The position numbers and the translations under genes are program-made. A DNA stretch of 41,733 bases from Pseudomonadota bacterium (GTDB lineage Bacteria; Desulfobacterota; Syntrophorhabdia; Syntrophorhabdales; Syntrophorhabdaceae), in NCBI GenBank assembly GCA_026388315.1, contig JAPLKA010000111.1, positions 1-41,733 on the forward strand, in the 5' to 3' direction. Every line of letters starts with the position of its first letter. Position 1 is the stretch's first letter. Shown in pieces: positions 4,872-32,359 of the stretch. The notes beneath the pieces are model-generated. The model did not search any database. It saw only the letters and a list, made by a program, of their open reading frames with translations, and was not told the origin of the DNA.

Positions 4872-5630
4872 ATGAAAGTAATGTATCATGTAGCTTTGAT
4901 GGTGGCTGTTGTCGCTCTGTTAGCGATCAGTGTGCCTGTGTGGGCGTCCGAGATGGATGACCGCATCGAATCATCCGCAAGGAAGTCCTATGTGTTCAAG
5001 ACCTATCTTCAGGCTAATGATATTAAAATCCAGTCCATGGAGGGCGTTGTTATCTTAACGGGAACTGTCTCCAAAGAATCCCACAAGTCATTGGCCGTGG
5101 AGACCGTGGCGAGCTTGCCCGGGGTCAAGAGTGTGGACAACAGGCTGGAAGTCAAAGGGGAATCCCCCGCTGAGAACTCGGATGCGTGGCTCATGGAAAA
5201 GGTGAGAGCTACACTCGTGTTTCATAGGAGCGTAGACGCCGGTAGCACCAATATTTATGTTAAAGACGGCATCGTGACCCTGCGAGGTGATGCTGCCAGT
5301 AAGGCACAAAAGGATCTGACGACCGAATACACCAAGGATGTGGAAGGAGTCAAAGATGTAAATAATGAGATGATAGTATCCGGGGCTTCTGCAAAGCCAA
5401 AAACAACAGTAGGTGAAGATATTGATGACGCTTCCATCACCGCCCAGGTCAAGATGTCCTTACTCTACCATCGCTCGACCAGCGCCATAAACACTAAGGT
5501 AGAGACGAATAATGGTGTGGTCACATTGTATGGCAAGGCCAAAAACGCATCTGAAAAAGACCTGGCCGCCAAATTCGCCAACGACATAAGCGGTGTTAAA
5601 AACGTAAATAACCGGATGACCATCGAGTAG
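4872..5630 (+). CDS. Triple BON-domain exported protein
   Basis: A 252-residue protein with a signal peptide (residues 1-26, cleavage after VWA) and three BON domains at about residues 28-95, 106-170 and 187-252. Each ends in the characteristic GVxxVxNxL/M pattern (GVKSVDNRL, GVKDVNNEM, GVKNVNNRM), with GxVTLxG in the middle. BON domains bind phospholipid or cell-envelope surfaces; OsmY of E. coli has two and is periplasmic and osmotically induced. The start at 4872 follows AAGGAGG; an in-frame ATG at 4791 falls in a duplicated fragment and would destroy the signal peptide layout. Confidence 0.88.
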   Translation: MKVMYHVALMVAVVALLAISVPVWASEMDDRIESSARKSYVFKTYLQANDIKIQSMEGVVILTGTVSKESHKSLAVETVASLPGVKSVDNRLEVKGESPAENSDAWLMEKVRATLVFHRSVDAGSTNIYVKDGIVTLRGDAASKAQKDLTTEYTKDVEGVKDVNNEMIVSGASAKPKTTVGEDIDDASITAQVKMSLLYHRSTSAINTKVETNNGVVTLYGKAKNASEKDLAAKFANDISGVKNVNNRMTIE

Positions 5631-5634
5631 TCCA

Positions 5635-5746
5635 AATAGACTCCCGCGGCTTGCCCTGGAATCTAGGCTGCGAGCATAAGCGAGCATGAGGGGGAGGCTC
5701 CATTCAGCTTTTGCTGATGGAGGGGGCGACGCAAGCCCCAGTATTT
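5635..5746 (-). repeat. Composite intergenic repeat, copy B (inverted)
   Basis: Read on the minus strand this segment has the same order as copy A at 571-698: ACTGGGGCTTGCGTCGCC, a CCCCCTCC run, a variable hairpin, two GCTCGC blocks, then a degenerate AATAGAxTCCCGCGG palindrome (5635-5665). It sits between the BON gene and the next small gene and ends about six bases before that gene's ribosome site. Confidence 0.7.
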
Positions 5747-5760
5747 GAAAGGAGAATCAC

Positions 5761-5910
5761 ATGTTATCGACGATTGCTGTAATACTGATAGTTCTGTGGC
5801 TGCTGGGGCTGGTGACCGGCTATACGATGGGTTATTTTATTCATATTCTACTGGTTGTTGCCATCATCGTCGTGCTGGTCAGAGTCATTCAGGGGCGACG
5901 AGTGTTGTAA
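5761..5910 (+). CDS. Small lmo0937-type membrane protein
   Basis: A 49-residue protein (MLSTIAVILIVLWLLG... ending IQGRRVL) with two membrane segments, residues 4-17 and 24-43. The IxxVLWLLG start and the GYxxGxxIH turn match the lmo0937/DUF5670 family of tiny stress-associated membrane proteins common in deltaproteobacteria. Ribosome site AAAGGAG precedes the ATG. Its 5' end is duplicated in front of the BON gene. Function in the family is unknown. Confidence 0.75.
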   Translation: MLSTIAVILIVLWLLGLVTGYTMGYFIHILLVVAIIVVLVRVIQGRRVL

Positions 5911-19023: not shown

Positions 19024-20013
19024 TTGATTACAGGAATCGGAAGTTTCCCTTTTACAGACATAGACGAGACTATAGACGTTATTTTTTCAACATCGCAGGC
19101 AATTCCATTCTGGCCGCAACTGCCGAAAAGGTCTCCTGACGAAAATATGTATACCACATTCCTTGAAGGTGTGCCCTCTGTGGTCATTGATAAGACGAAG
19201 GAAACCGTCTTTATGGATACTGAAGACACACAGGGGATAGAGCGGTTCTATGAGAACGTTTATAACGAAAACCTTGAAGCCTTCAGGGTCTCTGAGGAGG
19301 CAGCGCCCGGTTTCTACCGTTTTCTGGAGAGGCTCAAAGAAATTGAAGGCGGTGTAAAGTTCATAAAAGGTCAACTGACGGGGCCTTTCAGCATGGGTTT
19401 AGGGCTGAAGGATGAAAAAGGTAAGCCGGTCATATATAACTACGGTTACTTCGATATTATCAAAAAAGCCCTGCACATGAAGGCAAAATGGATGATTGCA
19501 ACTATAAAGGCTAATTATCCGGGGAAAGAGGTTATTATCTTCTTCGATGAACCTTACCTTGTTTCTTTCGGGTCTGCCTATGTCGCGATATCGAAGAATG
19601 AGACGATTTCCCTTTTAAATGATGTGTTGGGCGGTATCGGGGCAAAAAGGGGTGTTCATTGCTGCGGCAATACGGACTGGTCTGTCCTGCTTAATGCGGA
19701 TGTCGACATTGTAAATTACGATGCCTTTAACTTCCTTGAGACTATCTTTTATTACAGGGAAGATTTGGTGAAATTTCTGGAAAGAGGCGGCTGGGTATCT
19801 CCCGGTATCGTGCCTTCGTCAGAAGAGGTGCTGAAGACACCCCCGGAGGTTTTACCGGATATTTTGAGGAAGTTTTCCGGGCTTATGGATGGCCTTAATC
19901 TGGTGAATAAACCGGAAGATTGGCTTATAACAACGAGCTGCGGACTCGGGAGTCTCAGTGTAGCAGAAGCCAAAAAGGCCATGGAACTGCTAAAAATGTT
20001 CAACGTTATTTAA
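19024..20013 (+). CDS. Core-MetE-like (UROD/MetE superfamily) methyltransferase, paralogue 1
   Basis: A 329-residue protein with a TTG start behind TAGGAGG. It corresponds to the catalytic half of cobalamin-independent methionine synthase. GVHCCGNTDW provides the zinc His and Cys, TTSCGLGS near the C-terminus the last Cys, and FFDEP lies before them. It lacks the N-terminal MetE half. 'Core' MetE proteins in some anaerobes take the methyl group from a corrinoid protein instead of methyl-folate; that donor is inferred. It shares IPFWPQLP, EDMY/ENMY and the terminal motifs with the paralogue at 31313-32359. It overlaps the convergent prmA by eight bases. Confidence 0.82.
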   Translation: MITGIGSFPFTDIDETIDVIFSTSQAIPFWPQLPKRSPDENMYTTFLEGVPSVVIDKTKETVFMDTEDTQGIERFYENVYNENLEAFRVSEEAAPGFYRFLERLKEIEGGVKFIKGQLTGPFSMGLGLKDEKGKPVIYNYGYFDIIKKALHMKAKWMIATIKANYPGKEVIIFFDEPYLVSFGSAYVAISKNETISLLNDVLGGIGAKRGVHCCGNTDWSVLLNADVDIVNYDAFNFLETIFYYREDLVKFLERGGWVSPGIVPSSEEVLKTPPEVLPDILRKFSGLMDGLNLVNKPEDWLITTSCGLGSLSVAEAKKAMELLKMFNVI

Positions 20014-20860: not shown

Positions 20861-20917
20861 GTAAGTTAAAAATTATTTTCTGTATTTTTTTGGCAGAAAA
20901 TAATTTTGTAAACTTAC
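20861..20917. repeat. Long AT-rich hairpin between the regulator gene and prmA
   Basis: The arms GTAAGTT...ATTATTTTCTG (20861-20882) and CAGAAAATAAT...AACTTAC (20894-20917) pair over 18 bp with a small internal loop and an 11-base loop. The right arm includes the last codon of the regulator gene. It is too AT-rich for a typical intrinsic terminator, but could reduce read-through into prmA or be a small palindromic repeat. Confidence 0.6.
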
Positions 20918-21801
20918 TTATCCCGTTTATCGGGGTTAGGGAAAACTACACTTCCCGTCCTGGTTATTTCGTAGCCTGTAACATCTTTTATGCGCCCCAG
21001 AAGAGCGGGTTGTTCGAAGAAAGACAGAAAGGTTTTTACATGCTGATACAAGAAATACTCTTTCGGAATGACTAAGTGAAAATCCTCGCTGAAAAGGGGT
21101 ATAAAATCCAGGTCGAGTATATGCGCCACATGCCGGATCCCGAATGCAGTGTCTGTATTGCCCTTGAGGACATTCAGCCCTGCCTGAAAATGCGACTCTA
21201 CCTCATTTGTGTAGCCTTTTATTGCTGCCGGGTCTATGTCTTCTTCGCGGAGCAGGAAGTCGAGGAGGAGTCGCGTTCCTGAGCCTTCGCTCCTGTTCGT
21301 GAACGTTGCTCCTTTTACGGCAATATCCTCAAGTGTTTTGATCCCTTTCGGGTTGTTTTTCTGAATATAAATGCCCTGTTCCCTTGAAAATAGATGAATC
21401 ACCACGTAATCATCTTTTGTCAGATACCTCTCAATATAAGAAAAATTATATTCGCGTTTTTTGATGTCCAGAATGTGGACACAGGACATGGTGGCCGACC
21501 CGTTTTTAAGCGCTTTGAGGCCGTTGATACTGCCTACAGGTGCATAGAAGATTGTGGATGTATGGGCTGCATTGAAAAGATCAATAATCCTTCTTAAGAG
21601 GATATCGTCACTTCCGGCGATGTAAATTTGTTTTTCTCTTTCGGTATTTTCCAGTATCCACCTGTCGATAAGCTCTCTTGTAAAGGCTATTTTCCCGCCA
21701 ATTTTAATGTGCGGTAATTTGGATTCCTGAACAAGTTTATAGATTTTTTTCTCATTTATCTTCAGGTATTTTGACAGTTCTCGCGTTGATAAAATTTCCA
21801 T
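20914..21801 (-). CDS. Transcription regulator: excisionase-type HTH plus PBP-like sensor
   Basis: A 295-residue cytoplasmic protein. The N-terminus (MEILSTRELSKYLKI... to IDRWI, about 45 residues) is an excisionase/MerR-like winged HTH. Residues about 60-290 form a periplasmic-binding-protein-like domain of the type found in oxyanion sensors, with GSINGLKAL, TFTNRSEGSGTR (compare SRGDNSGTN in TupA) and a C-terminal FFEQPALLG. No signal peptide. By context it should sense tungstate or molybdate and control the divergent transporter genes. I prefer the ATG at 21801: ATGs at 21810 and 21825 overlap the -10 box and none has a ribosome site, so translation is probably leaderless. Confidence 0.83.
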   Translation of the reverse strand: MEILSTRELSKYLKINEKKIYKLVQESKLPHIKIGGKIAFTRELIDRWILENTEREKQIYIAGSDDILLRRIIDLFNAAHTSTIFYAPVGSINGLKALKNGSATMSCVHILDIKKREYNFSYIERYLTKDDYVVIHLFSREQGIYIQKNNPKGIKTLEDIAVKGATFTNRSEGSGTRLLLDFLLREEDIDPAAIKGYTNEVESHFQAGLNVLKGNTDTAFGIRHVAHILDLDFIPLFSEDFHLVIPKEYFLYQHVKTFLSFFEQPALLGRIKDVTGYEITRTGSVVFPNPDKRDK

Positions 21802-21808
21802 TGATTCC

Positions 21809-21838
21809 ATTATATCGGAAAACATCAGAGATTTGCAA
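21809..21838 (-). promoter_or_regulatory. Promoter of the regulator gene
   Basis: On the minus strand, TTGCAA (21833-21838), an 18-base spacer and a perfect TATAAT (21809-21814). Transcription would begin near 21802, at the ATG chosen for the regulator. Confidence 0.6.
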
Positions 21839-21862
21839 ATAAGATGTGAGAAATAAATAATG

Positions 21863-21912
21863 GTAATTAATAGTTATAATTAGTACGAATTAGTAATTAA
21901 TAGTTATAATTA
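21863..21912. promoter_or_regulatory. Tandem operator candidate: two 20-bp direct repeats
   Basis: The 20-mer GTAATTAATAGTTATAATTA occurs at 21863-21882 and again, perfectly, at 21893-21912. The start-to-start distance is exactly 30 bp, about three helical turns, so both copies face the same side of the DNA. They lie between the two divergent promoters, 13 bases upstream of the -35 box of the transport genes, a suitable place for binding by the neighbouring HTH protein. Confidence 0.65.
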
Positions 21913-21925
21913 ATGCTGATAATGC

Positions 21926-21954
21926 TTGATTTTTTAGACAAAGGTAACTATTAT
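21926..21954 (+). promoter_or_regulatory. Promoter of the tungstate transport genes
   Basis: TTGATT (21926-21931), a 17-base spacer and TATTAT (21949-21954), a near-consensus sigma-70 pair, followed by ATTAGGCAT repeated twice (21954-21971) and an AGGAG ribosome site before the ATG at 21997. Confidence 0.65.
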
Positions 21955-21996
21955 ATTAGGCATATTAGGCATAATTTCTTTGACAGGAGCGCGTAT

Positions 21997-22854
21997 ATGA
22001 AAAGATGGCGTTATACAGGTTTGGTTTTGCTGTTTTTAATAATTCCATGCATTTCCTGGGCAGGAGACAGTAAATTTATCCTCTTATCGAGTACTATCGG
22101 CCCTATCGATTCGGGCATTGTGGATGTACTGGAAAATAAATTTGAGGAAGAAACCGGTATCAGGGTCAGGCATGTAGGGGCCGGGACCGGGGCTGCATTG
22201 GAGATAGCAAAAAAGGGGGATGTTGATCTTGTAATGGTCCATGCAAAATCTCTTGAGGAAAAATTTATTAAAGAAGGTTTTGGAACCGGAAGGATAGATT
22301 TAATGTACAACGATTTTGTGATTGTCGGCCCTTCCGTTGATCCCGCGGGGGTCAAGGGAATGAAGGGCGCTGCTGAAGCGCTCAGGAAGATTGCAGGTAA
22401 AGGCGCAATGTTTATAAGCCGGGGAGATAAGTCCGGTACACATGTGGCAGAGATGGTCTTATGGGAAAAGGCAGACATGAAACCATCGGGCGCCTGGTAC
22501 AAAGTTTACGAAAAAGGGTCTGAAGGGAACGTATCAACGTTGCGCTACACGGACCAGAAAGGGGCCTATACCGTTATTGACCGCGCAACCTATCTCTCCC
22601 TTCAGAAGGAGATAGGACTTGTTGTTCTGGTGGAGAAAGATAAGGCCCTGCTGAACTATATCAGTCTTATACCGGTCAGCCCGAAAAGGTTTCCCGGGGT
22701 TAATTATGACGATACGATGACCTTTGTAAAATGGCTTACTGCTCCAGACAAGGGTCAGACAACCATAAAAGATTTTGGAAAAGAAAAATACGGCAGTACT
22801 CTGTTTTTCCCGAATTCAAAGCAATGGAGAGAATCTCAGGGATTAAAAGATTAA
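21997..22854 (+). CDS. TupA-like oxyanion-binding protein, divergent paralogue
   Basis: A 285-residue exported binding protein (signal peptide residues 1-23, SWA). It aligns along its length with the TupA at 24213: VGPxxDPAGxKGMK, the anion-binding SRGDKSGTH, YTVIDRATYLSL and a terminal YGSTLFFPN. However the N-terminal TupA signature TTTSTQDSGLL is replaced by SSTIGPIDSGI, so anion contacts near the first loop differ. It may bind a different oxyanion or act as a second, different-affinity receptor. An upstream in-frame ATG at 21913 is rejected because it overlaps the operator and promoter. Confidence 0.83.
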   Translation: MKRWRYTGLVLLFLIIPCISWAGDSKFILLSSTIGPIDSGIVDVLENKFEEETGIRVRHVGAGTGAALEIAKKGDVDLVMVHAKSLEEKFIKEGFGTGRIDLMYNDFVIVGPSVDPAGVKGMKGAAEALRKIAGKGAMFISRGDKSGTHVAEMVLWEKADMKPSGAWYKVYEKGSEGNVSTLRYTDQKGAYTVIDRATYLSLQKEIGLVVLVEKDKALLNYISLIPVSPKRFPGVNYDDTMTFVKWLTAPDKGQTTIKDFGKEKYGSTLFFPNSKQWRESQGLKD

Positions 22855-22881
22855 TAAAATTTCACAAGGAGGTAAGAAAGG

Positions 22882-24177
22882 ATGAAAAAGTTTGTTGTTG
22901 TATTGCTTGCCCTGTTTCTCGCAGTGCCTGCTGTTACCTATGCAGGGAGCGTAACAAGCATGTATGATGTAACCATCGGCGGGTATGTGAAGATGGATTT
23001 GGGCTGGCAGAACCAGAACCTTGGTCCGGATTATTCCGCTGCGGTACGGGGCTCCAGGCCGAACAACCAGAACAAGTATGATGAGTACGGAAGCCTTTAC
23101 TCCTATGCCGGCGAGACAAGGCTGAACCTTGGCATCAAAGGCCCTGATGCATGGGGCGCAAAGACATCTGCCTTTATCGAAGGCGATTTCAGGGGCGCAA
23201 GCATCAGTTCGACGGCAGGCGTATTTGAATTGAGGCATGCTTTCATAAAATTCGACTGGGCACAGGACAGCCTGCTCATCGGCCAGTACTGGAATGACTG
23301 GGGTTACATCCCTTCATTTTTCATAGTCGGGAACGGTGACTTAAACCCTATGGGTCGTGGCAACCGGCAGCCTCAGGTCAGGTGGACACATACATGGAAT
23401 AAGAACTTTTCGGGCTTCCTCGGTATCTATTCCGAATATAACACGCTTGCCGGCGGCACCATCGCAGCAAACACCCAGAATGACAATGCACGGTCACTTA
23501 TGCCCCACTATATGGGCGAATTCAAGTGGCAGACCGACAGTTGCGGAAAGATCGGCCCATGGCTGACACAGTTAGCCTTCGGCGGGTTCTACGGCCAGGA
23601 GAAGAAGACCTATGTCGATACAACGGGCACCAGATGGAATGATGACAATGTGAATTCCTGGTCAATCGCACTGAAAGGCTATATCCCCATCATCCCCGAG
23701 AAAAAAGGAAATAAGGCAGGGGCGCTTGGATTCAGCGGTGCGACCTTCATGGGTCAGAACAACGGCCTCTATTACACCAGCGGCCCGGCAGTATCGTACG
23801 ACGCTGCCCTGAACCCGAATGGAGCATACTACAGCGCCGCAGCAACGGTGAATTACGGCGGATGGGGACAGCTTTCCTATTACTTCACCGATAATATCTG
23901 GATAAACGGTATTTACGGAACATTCTCAAACAACTTTAATCCCAATACCTTCAGGGCAGTTGGCGCTAACGCAATCAGAACCAACCAGCACATGTTTCTC
24001 AACATCATCTACGACGTGAATCCGGCAGTCAGGCTTGGCATCGAATATGCGCGCGTTATGACAGGATATGCGGCATACGGCCCGGGTACCGCAGGTACCG
24101 ATGCAGCCAATGCCAACAACCTCGACAGGTCCGGTACGATGGATTCAGTCAGGATGGCGGCCTGGTATTTCTTTTAA
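22882..24177 (+). CDS. Outer-membrane porin-like protein in the tungstate operon
   Basis: A 431-residue protein with a signal peptide (residues 1-21, TYA) and a beta-barrel pattern throughout: GGYVKMDLGWQNQN at the start, ETRLNLGIKGP, FIEGDFRG, many alternating aromatic strands, and a closing MAAWYFF with C-terminal Phe required for BAM-dependent insertion. It resembles the DcaP/porin superfamily found in anaerobic deltaproteobacteria. It begins 27 bases after one TupA-like gene and ends 35 before the next, so it belongs to the same transcript. An outer-membrane route for tungstate or molybdate is inferred. Confidence 0.85.
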   Translation: MKKFVVVLLALFLAVPAVTYAGSVTSMYDVTIGGYVKMDLGWQNQNLGPDYSAAVRGSRPNNQNKYDEYGSLYSYAGETRLNLGIKGPDAWGAKTSAFIEGDFRGASISSTAGVFELRHAFIKFDWAQDSLLIGQYWNDWGYIPSFFIVGNGDLNPMGRGNRQPQVRWTHTWNKNFSGFLGIYSEYNTLAGGTIAANTQNDNARSLMPHYMGEFKWQTDSCGKIGPWLTQLAFGGFYGQEKKTYVDTTGTRWNDDNVNSWSIALKGYIPIIPEKKGNKAGALGFSGATFMGQNNGLYYTSGPAVSYDAALNPNGAYYSAAATVNYGGWGQLSYYFTDNIWINGIYGTFSNNFNPNTFRAVGANAIRTNQHMFLNIIYDVNPAVRLGIEYARVMTGYAAYGPGTAGTDAANANNLDRSGTMDSVRMAAWYFF

Positions 24178-24212
24178 GGTGTAATGAGGACAGTGAGCAA
24201 AGGAGAATCTTT

Positions 24213-25070
24213 ATGAAACAAATGAGAATTATTCCGGTAATACTAAGCATGCTGCTTGTTTTGACATGTTTTTGCGCCATATCACCCGTTTCTGCCCAGC
24301 AGAAAAACATCATTCTGGCTACAACGACGAGCACCCAGGACTCCGGCCTTCTTGATGTCCTCATTCCTGTTTTTGAGAAAAAGACAGGTTATTTCATCAA
24401 GACCATCGCCGTTGGGTCAGGTCAGGCTATGGCCATGGGGCAGAAGGGAGAAGCAGATGTTCTGCTCGTACATTCCCCTGATGCAGAGGCAAAATTTGTT
24501 GCCCAAGGCTACGGGATCAATAGAAGGCTTGTCATGCACAACGATTATATTGTTGTAGGACCAGGGAAGGACCCGGCAGGCATTAAGGGTATGAAATCAA
24601 CCGTTGCGGCCTTTAAGAAGATTGCCGCCAGAAAGAGCCTGTTTATGTCAAGGGGAGATAATTCCGGAACCAACGCGAAAGAAAAGACAATATGGAAGGC
24701 ATCCGGTATTGACCCTGAAAAAGAAAAATGGTATCAACAGACAGGTCTCGGGATGGGTCAGACACTCAATGTAGCTTCCGAAAAAGGGGCATATACGCTC
24801 ACCGACCGGGGAACCTATCTTGCATTGAAAAAGATGCTTGGACTTGATATATTGACTGAAGGTGATGCAATGCTTCTCAATATCTATCATGCAATAGAGG
24901 TGAACCCTGCAAAATGGCCCAAGGTCAATGCAGCCGGCGCAAAGGCCTTCGCCGATTTTATGGTATCAAAAGAGGTACAGGATATTGTTAAAATCTTTGG
25001 TGTAAATAAGTACGGATCACCGCTTTTCTTTCCTGATGCCGGTAAAAAGGTGGAGGGTCTGGGGAGATAG
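24213..25070 (+). CDS. tupA: Tungstate ABC transporter, substrate-binding protein
   Basis: A 285-residue exported protein (signal peptide residues 1-28, VSA). It has the canonical TupA motifs TTTSTQDSGLLDVLIP near the mature N-terminus and FMSRGDNSGTN around residue 150, plus YTLTDRGTYLAL and a terminal YGSPLFFP. TupA binds tungstate with very high affinity and delivers it to TupBC for tungsten enzymes such as aldehyde ferredoxin oxidoreductases and formate dehydrogenases. An AAAGGAG site precedes the ATG. Confidence 0.92.
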   Translation: MKQMRIIPVILSMLLVLTCFCAISPVSAQQKNIILATTTSTQDSGLLDVLIPVFEKKTGYFIKTIAVGSGQAMAMGQKGEADVLLVHSPDAEAKFVAQGYGINRRLVMHNDYIVVGPGKDPAGIKGMKSTVAAFKKIAARKSLFMSRGDNSGTNAKEKTIWKASGIDPEKEKWYQQTGLGMGQTLNVASEKGAYTLTDRGTYLALKKMLGLDILTEGDAMLLNIYHAIEVNPAKWPKVNAAGAKAFADFMVSKEVQDIVKIFGVNKYGSPLFFPDAGKKVEGLGR

Positions 25071-25123
25071 ATAGAAGCAAGAAGTCAGAAGACAGATTTA
25101 AGTCTGGCCTCAACCAAACTGTT

Positions 25124-25152
25124 CCTGCCTGCGCCTTGGACGAGGCAGACAG
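25124..25152. repeat. GC-rich inverted repeat between tupA and tupB
   Basis: CCTGCCTGCG...GGCAGACAGG forms a stem around TTGGACGA. The sequence type (CCTGCCTG...CGAGGCAGACAGG) recurs in varied form at 26070-26117, so these are probably dispersed palindromic repeats that invaded the operon spacers. Confidence 0.5.
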
Positions 25153-25216
25153 GTGTGATTTGGAAGATTGGTCAATTGGAATTTGTAGTTAAAAAACGGG
25201 AGGATCTGGGGAAATA

Positions 25217-25915
25217 ATGGACCTGATCATTGAAGGAATTAAGAAGGCCTTTCTGCTGTTTATCAGCCTTGACCCCGAGGTAATCAATATCACACTTTTT
25301 TCTTTGAAGGTTTCCGGCATTGCTACTTTTATCAGCCTTTTTATCGGTATCTCTTCGGGTACGGCGATTGCCCTTCTCCGTTTTCCCGGGAAAAAGATTA
25401 TTGTGAGTCTCGTAAACACCGGAATGGGGCTTCCTCCGGTTGTTGTAGGTCTTTTTGTGACGATTTTTCTGTGGAGGAACGGCCCCTTTGGTTTTCTGGA
25501 GATTCTCTATACCCCTTCAGCCATGATTATTGCACAGGCCATTATTGCAACGCCCATAGTGATGGGGATTACCGTTGCGGCGGTACAGCAGCTCCCTGAA
25601 AAACTCAGGTTACAGATTATAGCGTTAGGCGCTACCCGTACCCAGATGGTCTGGATGCTGGTTAAAGAGGCAAAGCTCCCCTTGCTCGCAGCAGTCATGG
25701 CCGGATTCGGCGGCGTCATATCAGAGGTCGGTGCATCCATTATGGTCGGCGGGAATATCAAGGGATATACCCGTGTTTTAACCACTGCAACAGTTATGGA
25801 AACAAGCAAAGGCAATTTCGACATAGCCATTGCCCTGAGTATAATCCTCCTTGCGATGGCATTTCTGGTAAATCTTGTCCTGACATTGGTACAGCAGAAA
25901 CGGAGGCCGAACTGA
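25217..25915 (+). CDS. tupB: Tungstate ABC transporter, permease
   Basis: A 232-residue inner-membrane protein with five to six hydrophobic segments and the permease-ATPase coupling loop LRLQIIALGATRTQMVWMLVKEAKLPLLAA. GMGLPPVVVGLFV and SEVGASIMVGGNIKGYTRVLTTA are typical of TupB/ModB-type permeases specific for tungstate. It lies 146 bases after tupA, a gap largely filled by repeats. The start is at ATG 25217 behind GGGAGGATCTGGGG. Confidence 0.92.
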   Translation: MDLIIEGIKKAFLLFISLDPEVINITLFSLKVSGIATFISLFIGISSGTAIALLRFPGKKIIVSLVNTGMGLPPVVVGLFVTIFLWRNGPFGFLEILYTPSAMIIAQAIIATPIVMGITVAAVQQLPEKLRLQIIALGATRTQMVWMLVKEAKLPLLAAVMAGFGGVISEVGASIMVGGNIKGYTRVLTTATVMETSKGNFDIAIALSIILLAMAFLVNLVLTLVQQKRRPN

Positions 25916-26069
25916 GAAAGGCGAAAGAACTAAACAGTAGACAGTAAGCGCTAAAAAATACGCAACAAAGCAAAGTAGGTATTGTTTCTTTAGTTTCTTT
26001 AGTTTTTCTGGTTATTTAACCAAACAGATCAGAGAAACCAAAGAAACCTGATTAACAAAAATGGCAGCC

Positions 26070-26117
26070 GCAGGTTTTCCCGCCTGTCCCTCGGACCTGG
26101 CGGACAGGAACCTGCGT
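26070..26117. repeat. GC-rich inverted repeat between tupB and tupC
   Basis: CGCAGGTT...CCGCCTGTCC (26070-26090) pairs with GGCGGACAGGAACCTGCG (26100-26117), about 17 bp of stem with a 3-base bulge, 11 bases before the tupC start. On the RNA it would fold close to the tupC ribosome site and could lower ATPase synthesis. The rest of the 212-base spacer holds only simple sequence. Confidence 0.65.
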
Positions 26118-26127
26118 TAAATGAAAT

Positions 26128-26865
26128 ATGAAAAACCAGAAAATCATTCTTGAGGGCAGGAATCTTCAGGTCAAAAAAGGACGCACGGTTATCCTTGACG
26201 TTCCCGGGATACAGATACAGGAGGGGGAGTTTTTGTCAGTTATAGGCCCGAACGGGGCAGGAAAGACTACTTTGCTCCAGGCTTTATGCTGTTTGATGAA
26301 ACCAGGTAGGGGGGAAGTTCTTTTCAGAGGCCGAAAAATAGGTTCAGAGTGCAATCTCATTGATTACAGAAGAAAAGTGACCATGGTCTTCCAGGAACCT
26401 TTACTTTTTGACACGACCGTTTTCAGTAATGTAGCATCCGGCCTGAAATTCCGTGGAATGAGGCAATCAGAGACAGAATCCATTGTAATGGAAAACCTTG
26501 AACGTTTTGGCATTGGCCATCTAAAAAATCGTTCTGCCAGGACGCTCTCAAGCGGAGAAGCACGTAAAACCGGTCTTGCCAGGGCACTTGCATTGAAGCC
26601 AGAGATACTTTTCCTTGATGAACCCTTCGGATCCCTTGATCCGCTCGCAAGAGATAATCTTTACAGCGACCTCGAAAAGATCATCCCCGGGTCAGGATTA
26701 ACTGTAATCTTTGCAACCCATGATTGTGAAGAAGCATTGAGACTATCTCATCGGATAGCTGTAATGAACGGCGGTGAAATCATTCAGGTCGATGAGCCTG
26801 AGAAGGTGTTAAAACACCCCGTCAATAATTTTGTAGCTTCATTTTACCGATTGAACAAATCCTGA
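26128..26865 (+). CDS. tupC: Tungstate ABC transporter, ATPase
   Basis: A 245-residue ABC ATPase: Walker A GPNGAGKT (40-47), Q-loop FQEP, signature LSSGEARKTGLARALA (LSSGE instead of LSGGQ), Walker B ILFLDEPFGSLDP and the switch ATHD. It has no C-terminal TOBE extension, as usual for TupC. With tupB and tupA it completes a tungstate importer in the inner membrane. No clear ribosome site is visible next to the ATG; the preceding hairpin occupies that space. Confidence 0.9.
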   Translation: MKNQKIILEGRNLQVKKGRTVILDVPGIQIQEGEFLSVIGPNGAGKTTLLQALCCLMKPGRGEVLFRGRKIGSECNLIDYRRKVTMVFQEPLLFDTTVFSNVASGLKFRGMRQSETESIVMENLERFGIGHLKNRSARTLSSGEARKTGLARALALKPEILFLDEPFGSLDPLARDNLYSDLEKIIPGSGLTVIFATHDCEEALRLSHRIAVMNGGEIIQVDEPEKVLKHPVNNFVASFYRLNKS

Positions 26866-26869
26866 TTTT

Positions 26870-26994
26870 ATACCAAGTTGCATTCAAAGGCGCATCGAGG
26901 CAGCGACAACGAGCCGACGCAGGCGTACACAGACGTACGTCGAGGAGTGCGAGGAGGAGATAACAAAGATGAGCGAATGAAGGCGACTTGGTAT
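26870..26994. repeat. 125-bp intergenic element with terminal inverted repeats
   Basis: It starts ATACCAAGTTGC and ends GCGACTTGGTAT; the first nine bases (ATACCAAGT) and last nine are perfect complements, with weaker matching further in. The interior is GC-rich and contains an AGACGTACGTC palindrome. Similar intergenic units ending in ACTTGGTAT occur in other deltaproteobacterial genomes (from memory). It has no coding capacity, so it is a REP/MITE-like element. It lies between convergent genes and its last base is the last base of the ArsA-like gene's stop codon. Confidence 0.65.
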
Positions 26995-27974
26995 TACACG
27001 AAAAGGTGATCGAGCATGCGTTTGAGCATAGGGGTGCCTTTCACCTCTGTCTCAAAGAGGGGGATCGTGGCCCTTACTTTGTCTCCGAATATCTCCCAGA
27101 TTTCCTGCATATGATCATCCTGCATCTTTACGCGGTTGCGGACAAATTCAGCCGTATTTTCACCTACCTGGTCTTTCTGGATGATCCCGTTGACTACCAC
27201 ACCACCCACAGGGATGCCGAATTCATAAAACCAGTTGATAAACCTTGTAATAACAGCAATGGGAAGGCTCTCCGGGAGTGTGGCAAAGAAAAAGGCGGTA
27301 AGGTTATTGTCTGTAAGAAGACCCTGCACTTTTGCCATCCTGCCCTTAAACCCCAGCAGGTAGTTCATGAGGGGGTCTTCCTCGTTTTTCTTTGAAAAGG
27401 AGAGCAGCTCCCTTAAAGTTTTTGCCTCGTCCCTGCTTTTCAGCATCTTTTCCACCCAGAGGGAATATACCTTGGACATGCCGAGGAGACGCCGTGCATT
27501 TGCCGTAGGGGCAGTATCAAAAACATAGAAATCGTATTCATTCTTGAACATGATGTCTGTCATATTTTCGAACATGGCGGATTCTTCAAAGGCAGGGTTC
27601 ATCGTGGCGGATTCAATGAAGTCATCGGCTTTGGTTGTAAGGTCTGCAAATTTGAGAAACCAGTTGATCTTTTCGCGGATCTCCCGTTTTGACCGTTCAA
27701 TAGTATCCTTTGTATCGATCTCAAAGGCATAACAGAGCGACTCATCGCACACGGTAACGGCCTTGCCGAATACGTCCTGTCCGTAAAGGTTCGAGAGGCT
27801 GTGGACAGGGTTGGTGGAGGCAAGAAGCGTCTTTTTCCCCTGTTTTGCAGCCCATAATGCTGCCGTTCCGGCAAGTACAGTCTTCCCTACCCCTCCTTTC
27901 CCACCGAAAAAGATATACTTAAGGCCGGGGTGGTCCTTCATATATTGGGTCATACTGGTAGTAATCTGGTTCAT
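26994..27974 (-). CDS. ArsA/Get3-like ATPase, subunit 1 (catalytic Asp replaced)
   Basis: A 326-residue cytoplasmic ATPase of the ArsA/GET3 family. It keeps the deviant Walker A FGGKGGVGKT (23-32) and a switch II-like VFDTAPTANARRLL (151-164). Switch I reads ASTNPVHSL: the catalytic Asp of the usual STDPAHSL (Asp57 of yeast Get3) is Asn55. The second Thr of GKTT is Val33. No arsenite-binding Cys triad is seen (only Cys76 and Cys81). It is the last gene of a cstA-led operon, 26 bases after its sister ATPase. As hydrolysis is doubtful alone, a heterodimer with that sister is inferred. Confidence 0.85.
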   Translation of the reverse strand: MNQITTSMTQYMKDHPGLKYIFFGGKGGVGKTVLAGTAALWAAKQGKKTLLASTNPVHSLSNLYGQDVFGKAVTVCDESLCYAFEIDTKDTIERSKREIREKINWFLKFADLTTKADDFIESATMNPAFEESAMFENMTDIMFKNEYDFYVFDTAPTANARRLLGMSKVYSLWVEKMLKSRDEAKTLRELLSFSKKNEEDPLMNYLLGFKGRMAKVQGLLTDNNLTAFFFATLPESLPIAVITRFINWFYEFGIPVGGVVVNGIIQKDQVGENTAEFVRNRVKMQDDHMQEIWEIFGDKVRATIPLFETEVKGTPMLKRMLDHLFV

Positions 27975-28000
27975 CGTGGAACTCCTTAGCTCACAATTAT

Positions 28001-28987
28001 TTACACGTTACCAAACATGGTAATTGCCAGTTTTTCTATCATCTCAAGCCCCGTAACGTCCCTGTCCATTTCAGGGACATAGGCAAGTATCTGGTTTTTG
28101 AATGTTTCGTCAATGACCTTCAGATATTTTTCCTGCATGACAAAACGGTTCTTCAGATATTCCGGAATCTCCTGCTGTTTCAATGTCTCGGACAAAACCC
28201 TGTTTACCACATAACCGCTTAAGGGGACATCGAATTTGGCAAAAAGTTCTGCCGCCTTCACCGTATCGGTAATAATCATCTGCTCTGCCGTAATCACAAA
28301 AAAGAATGCGGTCTTCTCCTTGTCGGTAAGGATGCCGGAAGACTTATTTATTCTCTCCTTGATGTAGAGGAGTTCATTGAGGATGGCATCTTCATCGAGC
28401 TCTTTATCCCTGCGCATGACAGCGGCAACCTGGTCATATTCCCTCATCTGCTGACGAAGGTTTGTTATTTTATCGATCCATTCGTCATATACAGATGCCA
28501 TGCTCAGATAATAGAGTGCATGTCCAAGGGGAACGAGGTCATAGATGTAGTAGTCATACCCGCCCTTTACCACGATATCCACCACTTCATCAAAGATTGC
28601 GCTCTCTTCCATGGCCGGCTCAGCAGCAGCAGCCTGGATATAGCTCTCTATCTCCTCGGGAATCTTATCCATGCCGTACATGTCCAGAATCTTTTGCCTG
28701 ATCTCCTGTTGATACTCTTTTACCCGGCGGTCGGCATCGATTTCCTGTGCATAGAGGTTCGGCATGATTTCTGTAGGCCCTTTGCCGAAGATGTCCCTCT
28801 TGAATATGTCGCTCAATGACGCCTGCGGGTCCACGGAAAAAACAAGGACACGCTTCCCCTGCTTTGCCAGATAATAGGCTGTTGCAGCGGAAAAGGTTGT
28901 CTTTCCCAGCCCTCCCTTGCCGCCAAACATAATGTAACGCCTGTCAGGATACTGTTCAAAAATTTTTGTCAGTGAAATAGGAACCAC
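28001..28987 (-). CDS. ArsA/Get3-like ATPase, subunit 2 (degenerate switch II)
   Basis: A 328-residue homologue of the next gene with a GTG start. The P-loop is intact, FGGKGGLGKTT (21-31), and switch I keeps the catalytic Asp (SVDPQASLSD, Asp53). Switch II is altered: the family DTAPTGH reads DLVPLGH (150-156). There is no cysteine at all, so a role in arsenite efflux is excluded on present knowledge. EPAMEESAIFDEV matches EEAMSFAE-type segments of the family. Its defects are complementary to those of subunit 1. The start codon follows AAAGGG closely, leaving some doubt about the exact initiation site. Confidence 0.85.
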   Translation of the reverse strand: MVPISLTKIFEQYPDRRYIMFGGKGGLGKTTFSAATAYYLAKQGKRVLVFSVDPQASLSDIFKRDIFGKGPTEIMPNLYAQEIDADRRVKEYQQEIRQKILDMYGMDKIPEEIESYIQAAAAEPAMEESAIFDEVVDIVVKGGYDYYIYDLVPLGHALYYLSMASVYDEWIDKITNLRQQMREYDQVAAVMRRDKELDEDAILNELLYIKERINKSSGILTDKEKTAFFFVITAEQMIITDTVKAAELFAKFDVPLSGYVVNRVLSETLKQQEIPEYLKNRFVMQEKYLKVIDETFKNQILAYVPEMDRDVTGLEMIEKLAITMFGNV

Positions 28988-29003: not shown

Positions 29004-29090
29004 CAGTGTTGAGTTATAAGTTTTGAGTGTTAAGTTTAAGGCTCTATTAAAACCCAAAACTCAACACTCAAAACTCAACACTGTTTTTTT
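29004..29090. repeat. Simple-sequence inverted repeat inside the cstA operon
   Basis: CAGTGTTGAGTT...TTGAGTGTT (29004-29032) pairs with AACACTCAA...AACTCAACACTG (29061-29083) with a spacer, followed by seven T on the plus strand. The units ACTCAACACTCAAAACT also occur inside wecB (37326-37357). As a plus-strand terminator it would stop antisense transcription; on the operon strand it is a stable hairpin between the 90-residue gene and the ATPase pair. Confidence 0.6.
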
Positions 29091-29361
29091 ATGCTAACGC
29101 ATCCGTTAAATCTTTTTCCCTCAGCATTCTCCTTTTCCAGGTTGCAATCTGGGGAACAACATAAGGCAACAACCGCAAGGAATAGTACGGCGGCAGAATG
29201 GGAACACCCAGCATATCCCCCATTGTAATGAGGATAAAGAGATGCTCCATGCTTGCCCTCGATTTTAAGGCAAACCGTGCCGAATCGTGGGCAGCAACCC
29301 CGTATACGAATTCTTTAATTGCCTGGAAAAAACCGCCTTTTTTCTTTTCTTCATCTCCCAT
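29089..29361 (-). CDS. Small conserved protein between cstA and the ArsA-like pair
   Basis: A 90-residue protein: a charged Lys-rich start (MGDEEKKKGGFFQAIKEF), then SMEHLFILITMGDMLGVP, PPYYSLRLLPYVVPQI and an ending WKRRMLREKDLTDALA. One hydrophobic stretch (about 41-57) is too short for a confident membrane helix. The EHLFxLxxxGxxLGxPxxxxYYxLxLxP pattern resembles, from memory, a small family found next to ArsA-like ATPases in Actinobacteria that ends in Cys-Cys; this one lacks the cysteines. It may link the transporter and the ATPases. Good operon spacing (55 bases after cstA). Confidence 0.7.
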   Translation of the reverse strand: MGDEEKKKGGFFQAIKEFVYGVAAHDSARFALKSRASMEHLFILITMGDMLGVPILPPYYSLRLLPYVVPQIATWKRRMLREKDLTDALA

Positions 29362-29416: not shown

Positions 29417-31102
29417 TTACACCTTCGCTGCTGCTGCCTGGTTTTTCATTGCCCTGTAACGGTTGAAGGCCTTAAACCCTTCCCACCCTAATATGAGTGC
29501 AGCAACAACAAGGAAGAGCCCAACGAGGCCCATGAGTGTATTGCCAATGAGATCCCGGCCCTTTACAGCACCGGAAAGAACCTTCTGGAGCAGGCTGTAG
29601 GACGTGAATAACAGCGCCGCTATGGTGGTGATAAACATGAAGATCATGGGCCAGAACGTCCATGCCGCCGGTTTCCCTTCGGACATCAGCCATGCAGTCA
29701 TAAGCATTAAAGCAAGGGAAGCCATCAACTGGTTTGCCCCTCCGAAAAGCACCCAAAGGTACTGCCACCACCCGGTAAGAACGAGCACCATACCAAGTAT
29801 GCTGGCAATGAATGTTCCCACATGGGCATTCCTGAATATGGGACTTATATCACTTAAAAGTTCCGATGTAGCAACCCTCATGAATCTGATAACAAGTTGC
29901 ATAATCGTAACGGCAAGGACGATCATCATGACGCTGCCGTAAGAACGACCCAAATTGGCAGGAAGCCCGAGGGCTCCCAGGAATTTCGCAACACCTCCTG
30001 CAAAGATAGCGCCCGGACCTTTTACGATAGCAGCTCCATATTCGGCAGGTGAGGCATAGATTGTACCGGCAATAATTAATGCGAACAAGGCAAGCATCAT
30101 CTCCACAAACATGACCCCTGCGCCAACAGGCCGTGCATCCATCTCGTTTTCCAGTTGCCTCGCTGTTCCGGAGCTTGATACGATGCTGTGCCAACCGGAA
30201 ATGGCGCCGCATGCGATTGTGACGAACATAATGGGCCAGATAGGACCGATCTTGATAGAAAAACCTGTATAGGCAGGAAGAGTAAAGTTAGGATGAATGA
30301 TGAAAACACCGATGATCCCGAAAAAAAGTCCAAGGAAAACAATATATGAGGCAACATAATTAATGGGAAGTGCAAAACGCCAGATGGGTAAAACCGCTGC
30401 AAAATAGCAGAAGACAAATGCTGCGATTGTCCATACAACCCTGCTGTTGGCAAGGTCTGTACCGAGGATCTTATCAGAAGGCGCAACGGTTCCGACCCAT
30501 ATACCGATGAGGGAAATAACTACCGTGACGACAGTTGTGAGGATGATATCTTTTTTCCACCTGTAAATCATCTGCCCTGCAAGGACACCGCCTATAGTAA
30601 GAAATAACCATGCCATAGGGGCTGCCTTTAATGCAATGGCTGTGCTGACAACAACGTTACCAAAGGCCCCTGCAATGAGAAGCAGGTAGAAATAAATAAA
30701 GGAAAGGAGGATGACCCTCGCCCTTGGCGATATCAGCCTATGACTCAAGCCCCCGAAAGAGGCGCCATCGTTGCGCATGGCAACCACGGCGCTGGAATAA
30801 TCCTGGACCCAGCCTATGAACAATGCGCCGCCGAGTATCCATACGAGTGCAGGAAGCCACCCCCACTGGATCGCGATGATCGGTCCTATAATCGGGGCCG
30901 CACCGGCGATTGATTTAAACTGGTAACCAAAAAGAATGTTTTTGCTTGTTGGCATGAACTCTACCCCGTCCATATACATCTTTGCCGGGGTAGCCCTTTT
31001 CGGGTCAGATTTGATGATTTTTGTATCTATGTATTTTGCGTAGTAACGGTACCCGATAAAGGCGACAATAAAACCTAAAATCAAGACAACTATTGCATTC
31101 AT
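29417..31102 (-). CDS. cstA: CstA-family carbon-starvation transporter
   Basis: A 561-residue inner-membrane protein with about 15 hydrophobic segments. GYQFKSIAGAAPIIGPIIA, GWVQDYSSAVVAMRNDG, SGWHSIVSSSGTARQLENE and the final helices are diagnostic of the CstA family. E. coli members transport pyruvate or peptides under starvation. This is the shorter type, without the extended C-terminus of E. coli CstA (about 700 residues). In a syntroph a role in pyruvate or amino-acid exchange is plausible but not shown. It heads the operon and has a clear AAGGGGGT ribosome site. Confidence 0.92.
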   Translation of the reverse strand: MNAIVVLILGFIVAFIGYRYYAKYIDTKIIKSDPKRATPAKMYMDGVEFMPTSKNILFGYQFKSIAGAAPIIGPIIAIQWGWLPALVWILGGALFIGWVQDYSSAVVAMRNDGASFGGLSHRLISPRARVILLSFIYFYLLLIAGAFGNVVVSTAIALKAAPMAWLFLTIGGVLAGQMIYRWKKDIILTTVVTVVISLIGIWVGTVAPSDKILGTDLANSRVVWTIAAFVFCYFAAVLPIWRFALPINYVASYIVFLGLFFGIIGVFIIHPNFTLPAYTGFSIKIGPIWPIMFVTIACGAISGWHSIVSSSGTARQLENEMDARPVGAGVMFVEMMLALFALIIAGTIYASPAEYGAAIVKGPGAIFAGGVAKFLGALGLPANLGRSYGSVMMIVLAVTIMQLVIRFMRVATSELLSDISPIFRNAHVGTFIASILGMVLVLTGWWQYLWVLFGGANQLMASLALMLMTAWLMSEGKPAAWTFWPMIFMFITTIAALLFTSYSLLQKVLSGAVKGRDLIGNTLMGLVGLFLVVAALILGWEGFKAFNRYRAMKNQAAAAKV

Positions 31103-31312: not shown

Positions 31313-32359
31313 GTGGCTAAACGTTTAAAATTCAGCGGGGATTTGTGCACCACGGCCATGGGCATTATGCCGCACGAGGATGTTCATGCAGCGCTTGATC
31401 TTGCTCTCACCATGGACATTCCTTTCTGGCCCCAGTTACCACGATTATCATTTTACGAGGATATGTATGTTCAGGCAATGGAAAATTTTCCCGGTGCTGT
31501 AATTGATGAAAGGCATACAAGGATTTATGTTGATACAAACAAATTTATTGACGATATCCCCCGATACCTTGATAATGAAGACAATCCGGCATTTTTCAGG
31601 TTGTCTGACAGGTATTCACCTGTGTACAGGGAGTTTCTCTCAAAAGAACTGCCTCATTTTACATCAATCAGAGGGCAGGCCATAAGTCCTGTCAGCCTCA
31701 CACTGAAAGTTGTTGACGAGAACGATAAACCTATAGTTTATAATGATGAAATGCGTTCCCTTGCATTCTCTTTTATTCAGAAAAAGGTAAATGCCCAGTA
31801 CAGGGAACTTAAAGAAAAGAACGAGAAGGCCTTTGTCTGGGTCGATGACCCAGGGTTGGAGTTCATTTTTAATGCCATGTGCGGATATGACAGCATGAAG
31901 GCAAAAAAAGAGCTGACAGAGTTTTTTGACGGCATCGAAGGCCCGAGGGGACTCCACCTCTGCGGACGGCCTGACTGGGATTTCCTCCTGTCATTGAATA
32001 TCGAGATACTGTCACTCAATGCATACGCCTTCGGAGACACCTTTGTTACATATCCGGGTACAAAGGATTTTATCGAGAAAGGGAACATCGTAAGCTGGGG
32101 GATTGTGCCCACATATTTTGAGGAATTTTCACAGGAGGATGTTAAAACCATTTCGAAAAGGCTTGAGGCAATGTGGAAAGTGCTGGGGAAAAAAGGACTT
32201 GATATGGGTTTAATTGTAAAAAACAGCATGCTTGCTCCGGCAACATGCAACCTCCTTAATCCTGATAAAACAGTTACCGTTGAGAGTTCATTCAGGTTGC
32301 TCAGTGAGCTTTCGAAGCACTTGAAAGAGAAATACAGGAAGGAAATTAAGAATTATTAA
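31313..32359 (+). CDS. Core-MetE-like methyltransferase, paralogue 2
   Basis: A 348-residue protein starting with GTG behind TAAGGA. It is a UROD/MetE-fold protein like the one at 19024, with IPFWPQLPRLSFYEDMY, VDDPGLEF, RGLHLCGRPDW (zinc His and Cys) and APATCNLLNP (last zinc Cys). There is no N-terminal MetE half. The zinc set looks intact, so it could activate a thiol for methyl transfer, from a corrinoid protein by analogy with core MetE of other anaerobes. It is divergent from the cstA operon; an overlapping ATG at 31311 is out of frame. Confidence 0.82.
   Translation: MAKRLKFSGDLCTTAMGIMPHEDVHAALDLALTMDIPFWPQLPRLSFYEDMYVQAMENFPGAVIDERHTRIYVDTNKFIDDIPRYLDNEDNPAFFRLSDRYSPVYREFLSKELPHFTSIRGQAISPVSLTLKVVDENDKPIVYNDEMRSLAFSFIQKKVNAQYRELKEKNEKAFVWVDDPGLEFIFNAMCGYDSMKAKKELTEFFDGIEGPRGLHLCGRPDWDFLLSLNIEILSLNAYAFGDTFVTYPGTKDFIEKGNIVSWGIVPTYFEEFSQEDVKTISKRLEAMWKVLGKKGLDMGLIVKNSMLAPATCNLLNPDKTVTVESSFRLLSELSKHLKEKYRKEIKNY

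Follow-up and report, generated by a model that had tools for sequence, protein, structure and literature searches.

A fixed, asymmetric pair of ArsA/Get3-like ATPases encoded with CstA and CstX

Introduction

Most work on ATPases of the ArsA/Get3 type concerns dimers that are symmetric or nearly so. ArsA homologues have been found in 26 operons with the transporter CstA, 24 of which also encode CstX, a protein of about 90 amino acids; according to the proposal made there, CstA is energised by ArsA and CstX links the two (Castillo & Saier 2010, PMC2963123). The same study described adjacent ArsA pairs in two organisms, 25–31% identical, observed that, in single-domain proteins, only Asn can stand in for the Asp of the SxD motif and suggested that the ArsA proteins are homodimers (PMC2963123). 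An open-literature search found no later work on the link between CstA and ArsA. E. coli CstA and the small protein YbdD jointly import pyruvate (PMC5847655), and the CstA relative BtsT of E. coli is annotated as a pyruvate:H+ symporter.

We compared these systems with a locus in a stretch of 41,733 nucleotides (the window) from a bacterium placed in the Syntrophorhabdaceae (Desulfobacterota). An earlier note, made from the sequence alone, had proposed that two neighbouring ATPases encoded there show complementary loss of catalytic residues.

Results

A CstA–CstX operon that ends in two ATPase genes

The window contains a run of four genes on the minus strand, encoding a CstA-type transporter, a putative CstX (called CstX below) and two ArsA/Get3-like ATPases, here called B and A, with the pair at the end of the run (Table 1). 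Both ATPase reading frames were found on that strand where the earlier note had placed them. Scans for promoters and terminators gave results at chance level.

Table 1. Genes and sequence motifs of the four-gene run in the window
Feature	Position	Strand	Evidence
CstA-type transporter (561 aa), heading the four-gene run	29417..31102	-	Pfam PF02554, 462.6 bits
CstX / cory-CC-star-like 90-aa protein (sm90)	29089..29361	-	NCBIfam NF041419, E=3.1e-9, under cut-off
Subunit B, ArsA/Get3-like ATPase, GTG start	28001..28987	-	PF02374, 244.6 bits; TIGR00345, 233.9 bits
Subunit A, ArsA/Get3-like ATPase	26994..27974	-	PF02374, 212.1 bits; TIGR00345, 207 bits
B P-loop GGKGGLGKT, signature and Walker lysines	28898..28924	-	
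B Asp53 in SVDPQA, kept catalytic switch-I Asp	28829..28831	-	99/99 orthologues
B switch II DLVPLGH versus DTAPTGH	28520..28540	-	DLVPLGH 98/99, DLAPLGH 1/99
A P-loop GGKGGVGKT, intact, signature and Walker lysines	27879..27905	-	
A Asn55 (AAC) in STNPVH, catalytic-Asp position (yeast Get3 D57)	27810..27812	-	97/97 orthologues
A switch II DTAPTAN, Gly-His to Ala-Asn	27498..27518	-	95/97 orthologues; one DTAPAAS, one gap

Other genes of the window lie on either side of this run. Positions 20914–26865 hold an uptake cluster of the tungstate/molybdate type, in which the genes of two TupA-like binding proteins flank a porin-like reading frame, along with a permease, an ATPase and a divergent HTH_17 and PBP_like regulator; the ABC ATPase gene of this cluster is convergent with the ArsA pair. 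Two paralogues that are 30% identical, at 19024–20013 and 31313–32359, presumably resemble cobalamin-independent methionine synthase/UroD-type proteins, as judged by eye. The second has no significant Pfam family, and one of the two adjoins cstA divergently.

Both subunits belong to the ArsA/Get3/TRC40 family

A and B each represent a complete protein of the GET3/ArsA/TRC40 family, with scores against TIGR00345 (Table 1) above its cut-off of 135 bits, and are 33% identical to each other. The deviant P-loop GKGG[VL]GK with its signature Lys was present in all A orthologues (97/97) and all B orthologues (99/99). The AlphaFold model of A (pLDDT 81, from an alignment of 32 sequences, with a helical subdomain of low confidence) matched Get3 over its length, and the top Foldseek matches were the archaeal Get3 structures 3ug7 and 3zq6. 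Superposition with VIA-align gave Z 29.8 for 3zq6 (rmsd 3.1, 278 aligned), Z 28.8 for the Get3(D57N) complex 9ns5 (rmsd 3.7, 289 aligned) and Z 24.1 for the M. tuberculosis Get3-like A and B structure 6bs3 (rmsd 4.5, 274 aligned). Profile and fold thus keep A in the ArsA/Get3/TRC40 family, as a variant. These genomes also encode a third ArsA-like group (loci L155–L160 and L163), which has a DCAPTGE-type switch II and open frames of about 400 amino acids.

A has lost the catalytic aspartate and B has retained it

We compared A and B with 22 other ArsA-like sequences (21 distinct genes, one being present twice, as L131 and L162) at the columns common to at least 20 of the 22. Both subunits retain the P-loop glycines, the signature lysine (K26 in A, K24 in B), the Walker lysine (K31 in A, K29 in B), the switch-I Ser, the switch-II Asp and Pro, and Asn262. 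At these conserved columns A deviates at Asp55, which is Asn, and at Gly158, which is Ala; B deviates at Val27 of the P-loop (Leu), at the Ala-His of switch I (Gln-Ala) and at Thr154 of switch II (Leu). The motifs that the earlier note had read, STNPVH with Asn55 and DTAPT in A and SVDPQA with DLVPLGH in B, are all present at the locus, codon 55 of A being AAC. The note left out the loss of Gly-His in A, whose switch II continues as DTAPTAN. Neither subunit therefore has the DTAPTGH form of switch II, which is not strictly family-defining, as other members carry DCAPTGE or DTPPTGL. Some of the switch residues altered in B vary elsewhere too, in ArsA-like proteins with these two motifs or with DTAPAGH. 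The A-loop region is consistently unlike between the subunits, PLFETEVKG-like in A and PEMERDVTG-like in B, and is highly variable among other ArsA-like members.

In yeast Get3, Asp57 positions the attacking water (PMC10248533). The D57N protein holds ATP bound without hydrolysing it (PMC12506534), which agrees with the block of hydrolysis that the earlier note ascribed to this change. Given this role of Asp57 and the phenotype of its mutant, A is very probably a binding-only ATP site. Judged by its sequence, B is missing no residue known as catalytic, although its switch regions appear remodelled. Of the proposed complementary loss, the part concerning A therefore stood, as A has lost the catalytic Asp, and the part concerning B did not.

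The altered residues are fixed across orthologues

The idea that the substitutions might be fixed in orthologous pairs was borne out. No canonical member was found among 97 A orthologues, all with Asn at the position of the catalytic switch-I Asp, or among 99 B orthologues, all with that Asp and DL(V/A)PLGH, although both sets were defined by profile score, so that distant pairs with other residues may be missed. In the 22 other ArsA-like sequences, the Asp was present in every case and DLVPL in none. B-like loci were collected from genomes of the species and from related genomes with six B peptides as seeds, none of which covers the catalytic Asp or LVPLGH (one, GYDYYIYD, stops at the switch-II Asp), and there was no selection for Asn among the A orthologues. 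Asn55 is encoded by AAC in 55 A genes and by AAT in 42; in B, Leu151 and Leu154 are each encoded by six codons and Val152 by four. Residues were held while synonymous sites turned over, a sign that purifying selection maintains the altered states of A and B, and fixed residues with variable codons reflect neither chance nor sequencing error.

The orthologue records are labelled as Desulfobacterota/Thermodesulfobacteriota, Chloroflexota, Acidobacteriota, Bacillota and others. By these labels the four-gene set is present in at least four bacterial phyla, although nearly all of the records are metagenome bins and some labels may be wrong.

The two genes occur together and may stem from one duplication

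A lies directly downstream of B at 80 of 80 loci, usually with a gap of less than 50 nt. In a sample of 297 Desulfobacterota genomes, 31 encoded both A and B, and one other genome had a B that is cut by the contig end; neither gene was found without the other wherever contig ends allow. Such co-occurrence and adjacency are as an obligate heterodimer would require. No fused A–B gene was present in the loci read.

In a maximum-likelihood tree, A formed one clade (100/100) and B another (100/99), and the two clades were sisters (100/97) with similar internal groupings. This topology is consistent with a single duplication that may have given rise to A and B before they spread. Long branches were flagged in the tree, including the join of A and B, and the place of the A+B clade among ArsA groups is unsettled, so that the single-ArsA operons described below cannot be taken as direct ancestors.

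The pair accompanies CstX and CstA

CstX is encoded upstream of B at all 80 loci. At 55 of the 66 loci that extend far enough to reveal it, a same-strand CstA lies upstream; of the 11 others, six have a full CstA nearby on the other strand, one has a partial CstA further upstream and four have none in view. This operon type, published in 2010 (PMC2963123) and also left out of the earlier note, likely gives the role of the pair. CstX of the window scored 36.7 bits against NF041419 ('cory-CC-star'), which is under the cut-off of 80, and had no Pfam match; its size and place fit CstX. A profile of its family also detects the small protein of single-ArsA operons. CstX is about 89–98% identical across related genera. 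AlphaFold predicted only helices for it, at a pLDDT of 56, which is not a reliable model. A plasmid search for CstX found none.

Two copies of CstX are present at 16 loci. Many paired operons (L145–L148, L067, L070, L072, L075 and L077) carry CstX as a tandem duplicate, encoding two divergent CstX proteins along with two ArsA proteins. The duplication of CstX hints that the coupling subunit, too, may be asymmetric, matching the ATPases.

The window's own genome also encodes a second CstX-like paralogue (GDLxGLPLxPPYYSMRLLPY; contig C53:45646-45888; L138, about 5524–5901) that stands alone: its gene lies just upstream of a Fur-type regulator, and neither CstA nor ArsA is encoded within roughly 5 kb of it. 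It is found in many relatives (L139–L144 and L149). We dropped the idea that CstX might be remotely related to E. coli YbdD/YjiX, for which we found no support: HHalign of the single YbdD sequence against the CstX profile gave a probability of 0.9%, on a GhPxxxxY fragment alone, and PF04328 found nothing above its cut-off in 26 related genomes.

CstA operons with a single ArsA keep canonical sites

We found single-ArsA operons with CstA and CstX in seven instances in the window's phylum and one on a Cytobacillus plasmid. In all eight, the ArsA protein has SxDPAH together with DTPPTGL or DTAPTGH, so the complementary change is specific to the paired form and not to the association with CstA. 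The Cytobacillus operon came from a plasmid search for ArsA, which additionally returned three haloarchaeal ArsA genes without CstA. A C-terminal Cys-Cys was rejected as a marker of single-ArsA operons, as the Cytobacillus CstX ends in CC and the Desulfobacterota ones do not.

Discussion

From these sequences we lean towards a reading in which A and B form an obligate heterodimer whose A site would hold ATP and whose B site would hydrolyse it, gating or energising CstA through CstX; we infer the heterodimer, the site that hydrolyses, the coupling to CstA and the substrate. A and B would be the halves of one ArsA/Get3-type ATPase, made together with CstA and CstX from one operon, each supplying a P-loop and a signature lysine to a shared interface. 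At the A site, where Asp has become Asn, ATP would be bound without hydrolysis, and the bound nucleotide would have a structural or regulatory role. In B, where the catalytic Asp is kept, ATP would be hydrolysed, and the remodelled switch loops of B may match those of the partner. The dimer would close on two ATP molecules and open after one hydrolysis event at B. This cycle could be passed through CstX to CstA to drive or gate the uptake of pyruvate or of a peptide-like substrate, as suggested by E. coli CstA. CstA relatives without ATPases, such as BtsT, are secondary transporters, so the transporter type does not require ATP.

A wider reading is plausible, although we stop short of calling it likely: the pair may be an ArsA-family equivalent of asymmetric ABC transporters, an obligate heterodimer with one ATP-locked and one hydrolysing site, may render CstA, an importer of the secondary-carrier type, ATP-driven or ATP-gated through CstX, and may descend from a symmetric ATPase whose gene duplicated and whose copies diverged in complementary ways.

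It is unlikely that both sites are dead or nearly dead for hydrolysis, in which case the pair would be an ATP-locked scaffold or energy sensor that gates CstA by its occupancy with ATP or ADP and is no motor. B has three fixed changes in switch II (T, A and T to L, V and L), QA for AH in switch I and an A-loop (PEMERD) unlike that of A (PLFETE), so that B too could be inactive. However, B retains the Asp and, except for the P-loop Val (Leu in B), the other family-invariant residues of the nucleotide site, and positions 2, 3 and 5 of switch II are variable in other ArsA-like proteins. NifH, which belongs to this superfamily as well, is an active ATPase despite its DVLGD motif, which further counts against inactivity of B.

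We regard as equally doubtful a Get3-like targeting or assembly chaperone that would shield a hydrophobic segment of CstX or CstA and deliver the protein to the membrane, with no role during transport. In fold, A most resembles Get3, and CstX has one short hydrophobic stretch, but this segment is central (about residues 39–59) and marginally hydrophobic (maximum 1.5). In addition, the CxxC zinc motif was present in 0 of 196 A and B sequences. The stretch equivalent to the Met-rich helix of archaeal Get3 is hydrophilic in both subunits of the window over its first 20 residues (mean KD −1.4, versus about 0), a part in which the model of A has low pLDDT.

Single-domain Get3 proteins are homodimers, a precedent for A and B as separate homodimers with distinct jobs that are merely co-transcribed, and homodimers were also the guess of Castillo & Saier (PMC2963123). 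We consider this improbable here, as the two genes were found only together wherever contig ends permit, both sites of an A homodimer would be dead, and a single crystal structure entry, 6bs3, covers Get3-like A and B of M. tuberculosis, going by its title. Finally, the pair is almost certainly not a two-gene version of the ATPase that drives arsenite pumps: despite the family-level likeness to ArsA, both proteins are, as the earlier note held, no pump ATPases, being single-domain, without the Cys113/172/422 triad (A has two Cys, Cys76 and Cys81; B has zero, as the note had it) and scoring 102–105 bits against an ArsA equivalog cut-off of 650, and no ars genes were found among the window ORFs examined.

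In this pair, a mutant of the D57N type has become permanent in one of the two ATPases and has been kept across several phyla. The one-working-site design that we favour can now be compared with single-gene CstA operons that have canonical sites, and it sharpens the 2010 proposal that the transporters driven by ArsA proteins are not limited to arsenite pumps. The organisms concerned include anaerobic syntrophs and Chloroflexota, whose carbon uptake is little understood. New here are the asymmetric pair in its fixed state and the way in which it differs from single-gene operons; CstA–CstX–ArsA operons were known (2010, PMC2963123). We found no biochemistry of any pair member in the literature.

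Among known systems, the CstA–CstX–ArsA operons (PMC2963123) share with this locus CstA, single-domain ArsA homologues of about 330 amino acids and the absence of arsR, and their CstX of about 90 amino acids is matched here by a CstX-like protein of that size. The study treated the ArsA proteins as one class and reported neither the pairing of a fixed Asn half with a fixed DLVPLGH half nor the contrast with single-ArsA operons (PMC2963123). Get3/TRC40 shares the fold and the P-loop, and A carries by nature precisely the substitution of the yeast laboratory mutant D57N (PMC12506534), but the window pair consists of two different subunits, lacks CxxC and appears to lack the signature of a hydrophobic cargo helix. 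The ArsA proteins of E. coli and L. ferriphilum are alike in having two nucleotide sites per dimer or pseudodimer that drive a separate membrane transporter, and unlike in being one polypeptide with a Cys triad and canonical motifs in both halves (partly PMC2963123).

The closest solved Get3-like pair is BagA/BagB of M. tuberculosis (Rv3679/Rv3680; PDB 6bs3–6bs5), two Get3-like proteins, numbered as neighbouring genes, that were crystallised together as Get3-like A and B. An open-literature search found no paper on their biochemistry. The window proteins differ from them, scoring 33–54 bits against NF053622/NF053621 (38 and 54 against a cut-off of 400, 33 and 39 against 521), and we rejected their membership of these families. 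Heterodimeric ABC transporters such as TAP and TmrAB combine one consensus and one degenerate ATP site. They belong to a different NTPase class, of which A–B is not a member, and serve as a working analogy for the pair.
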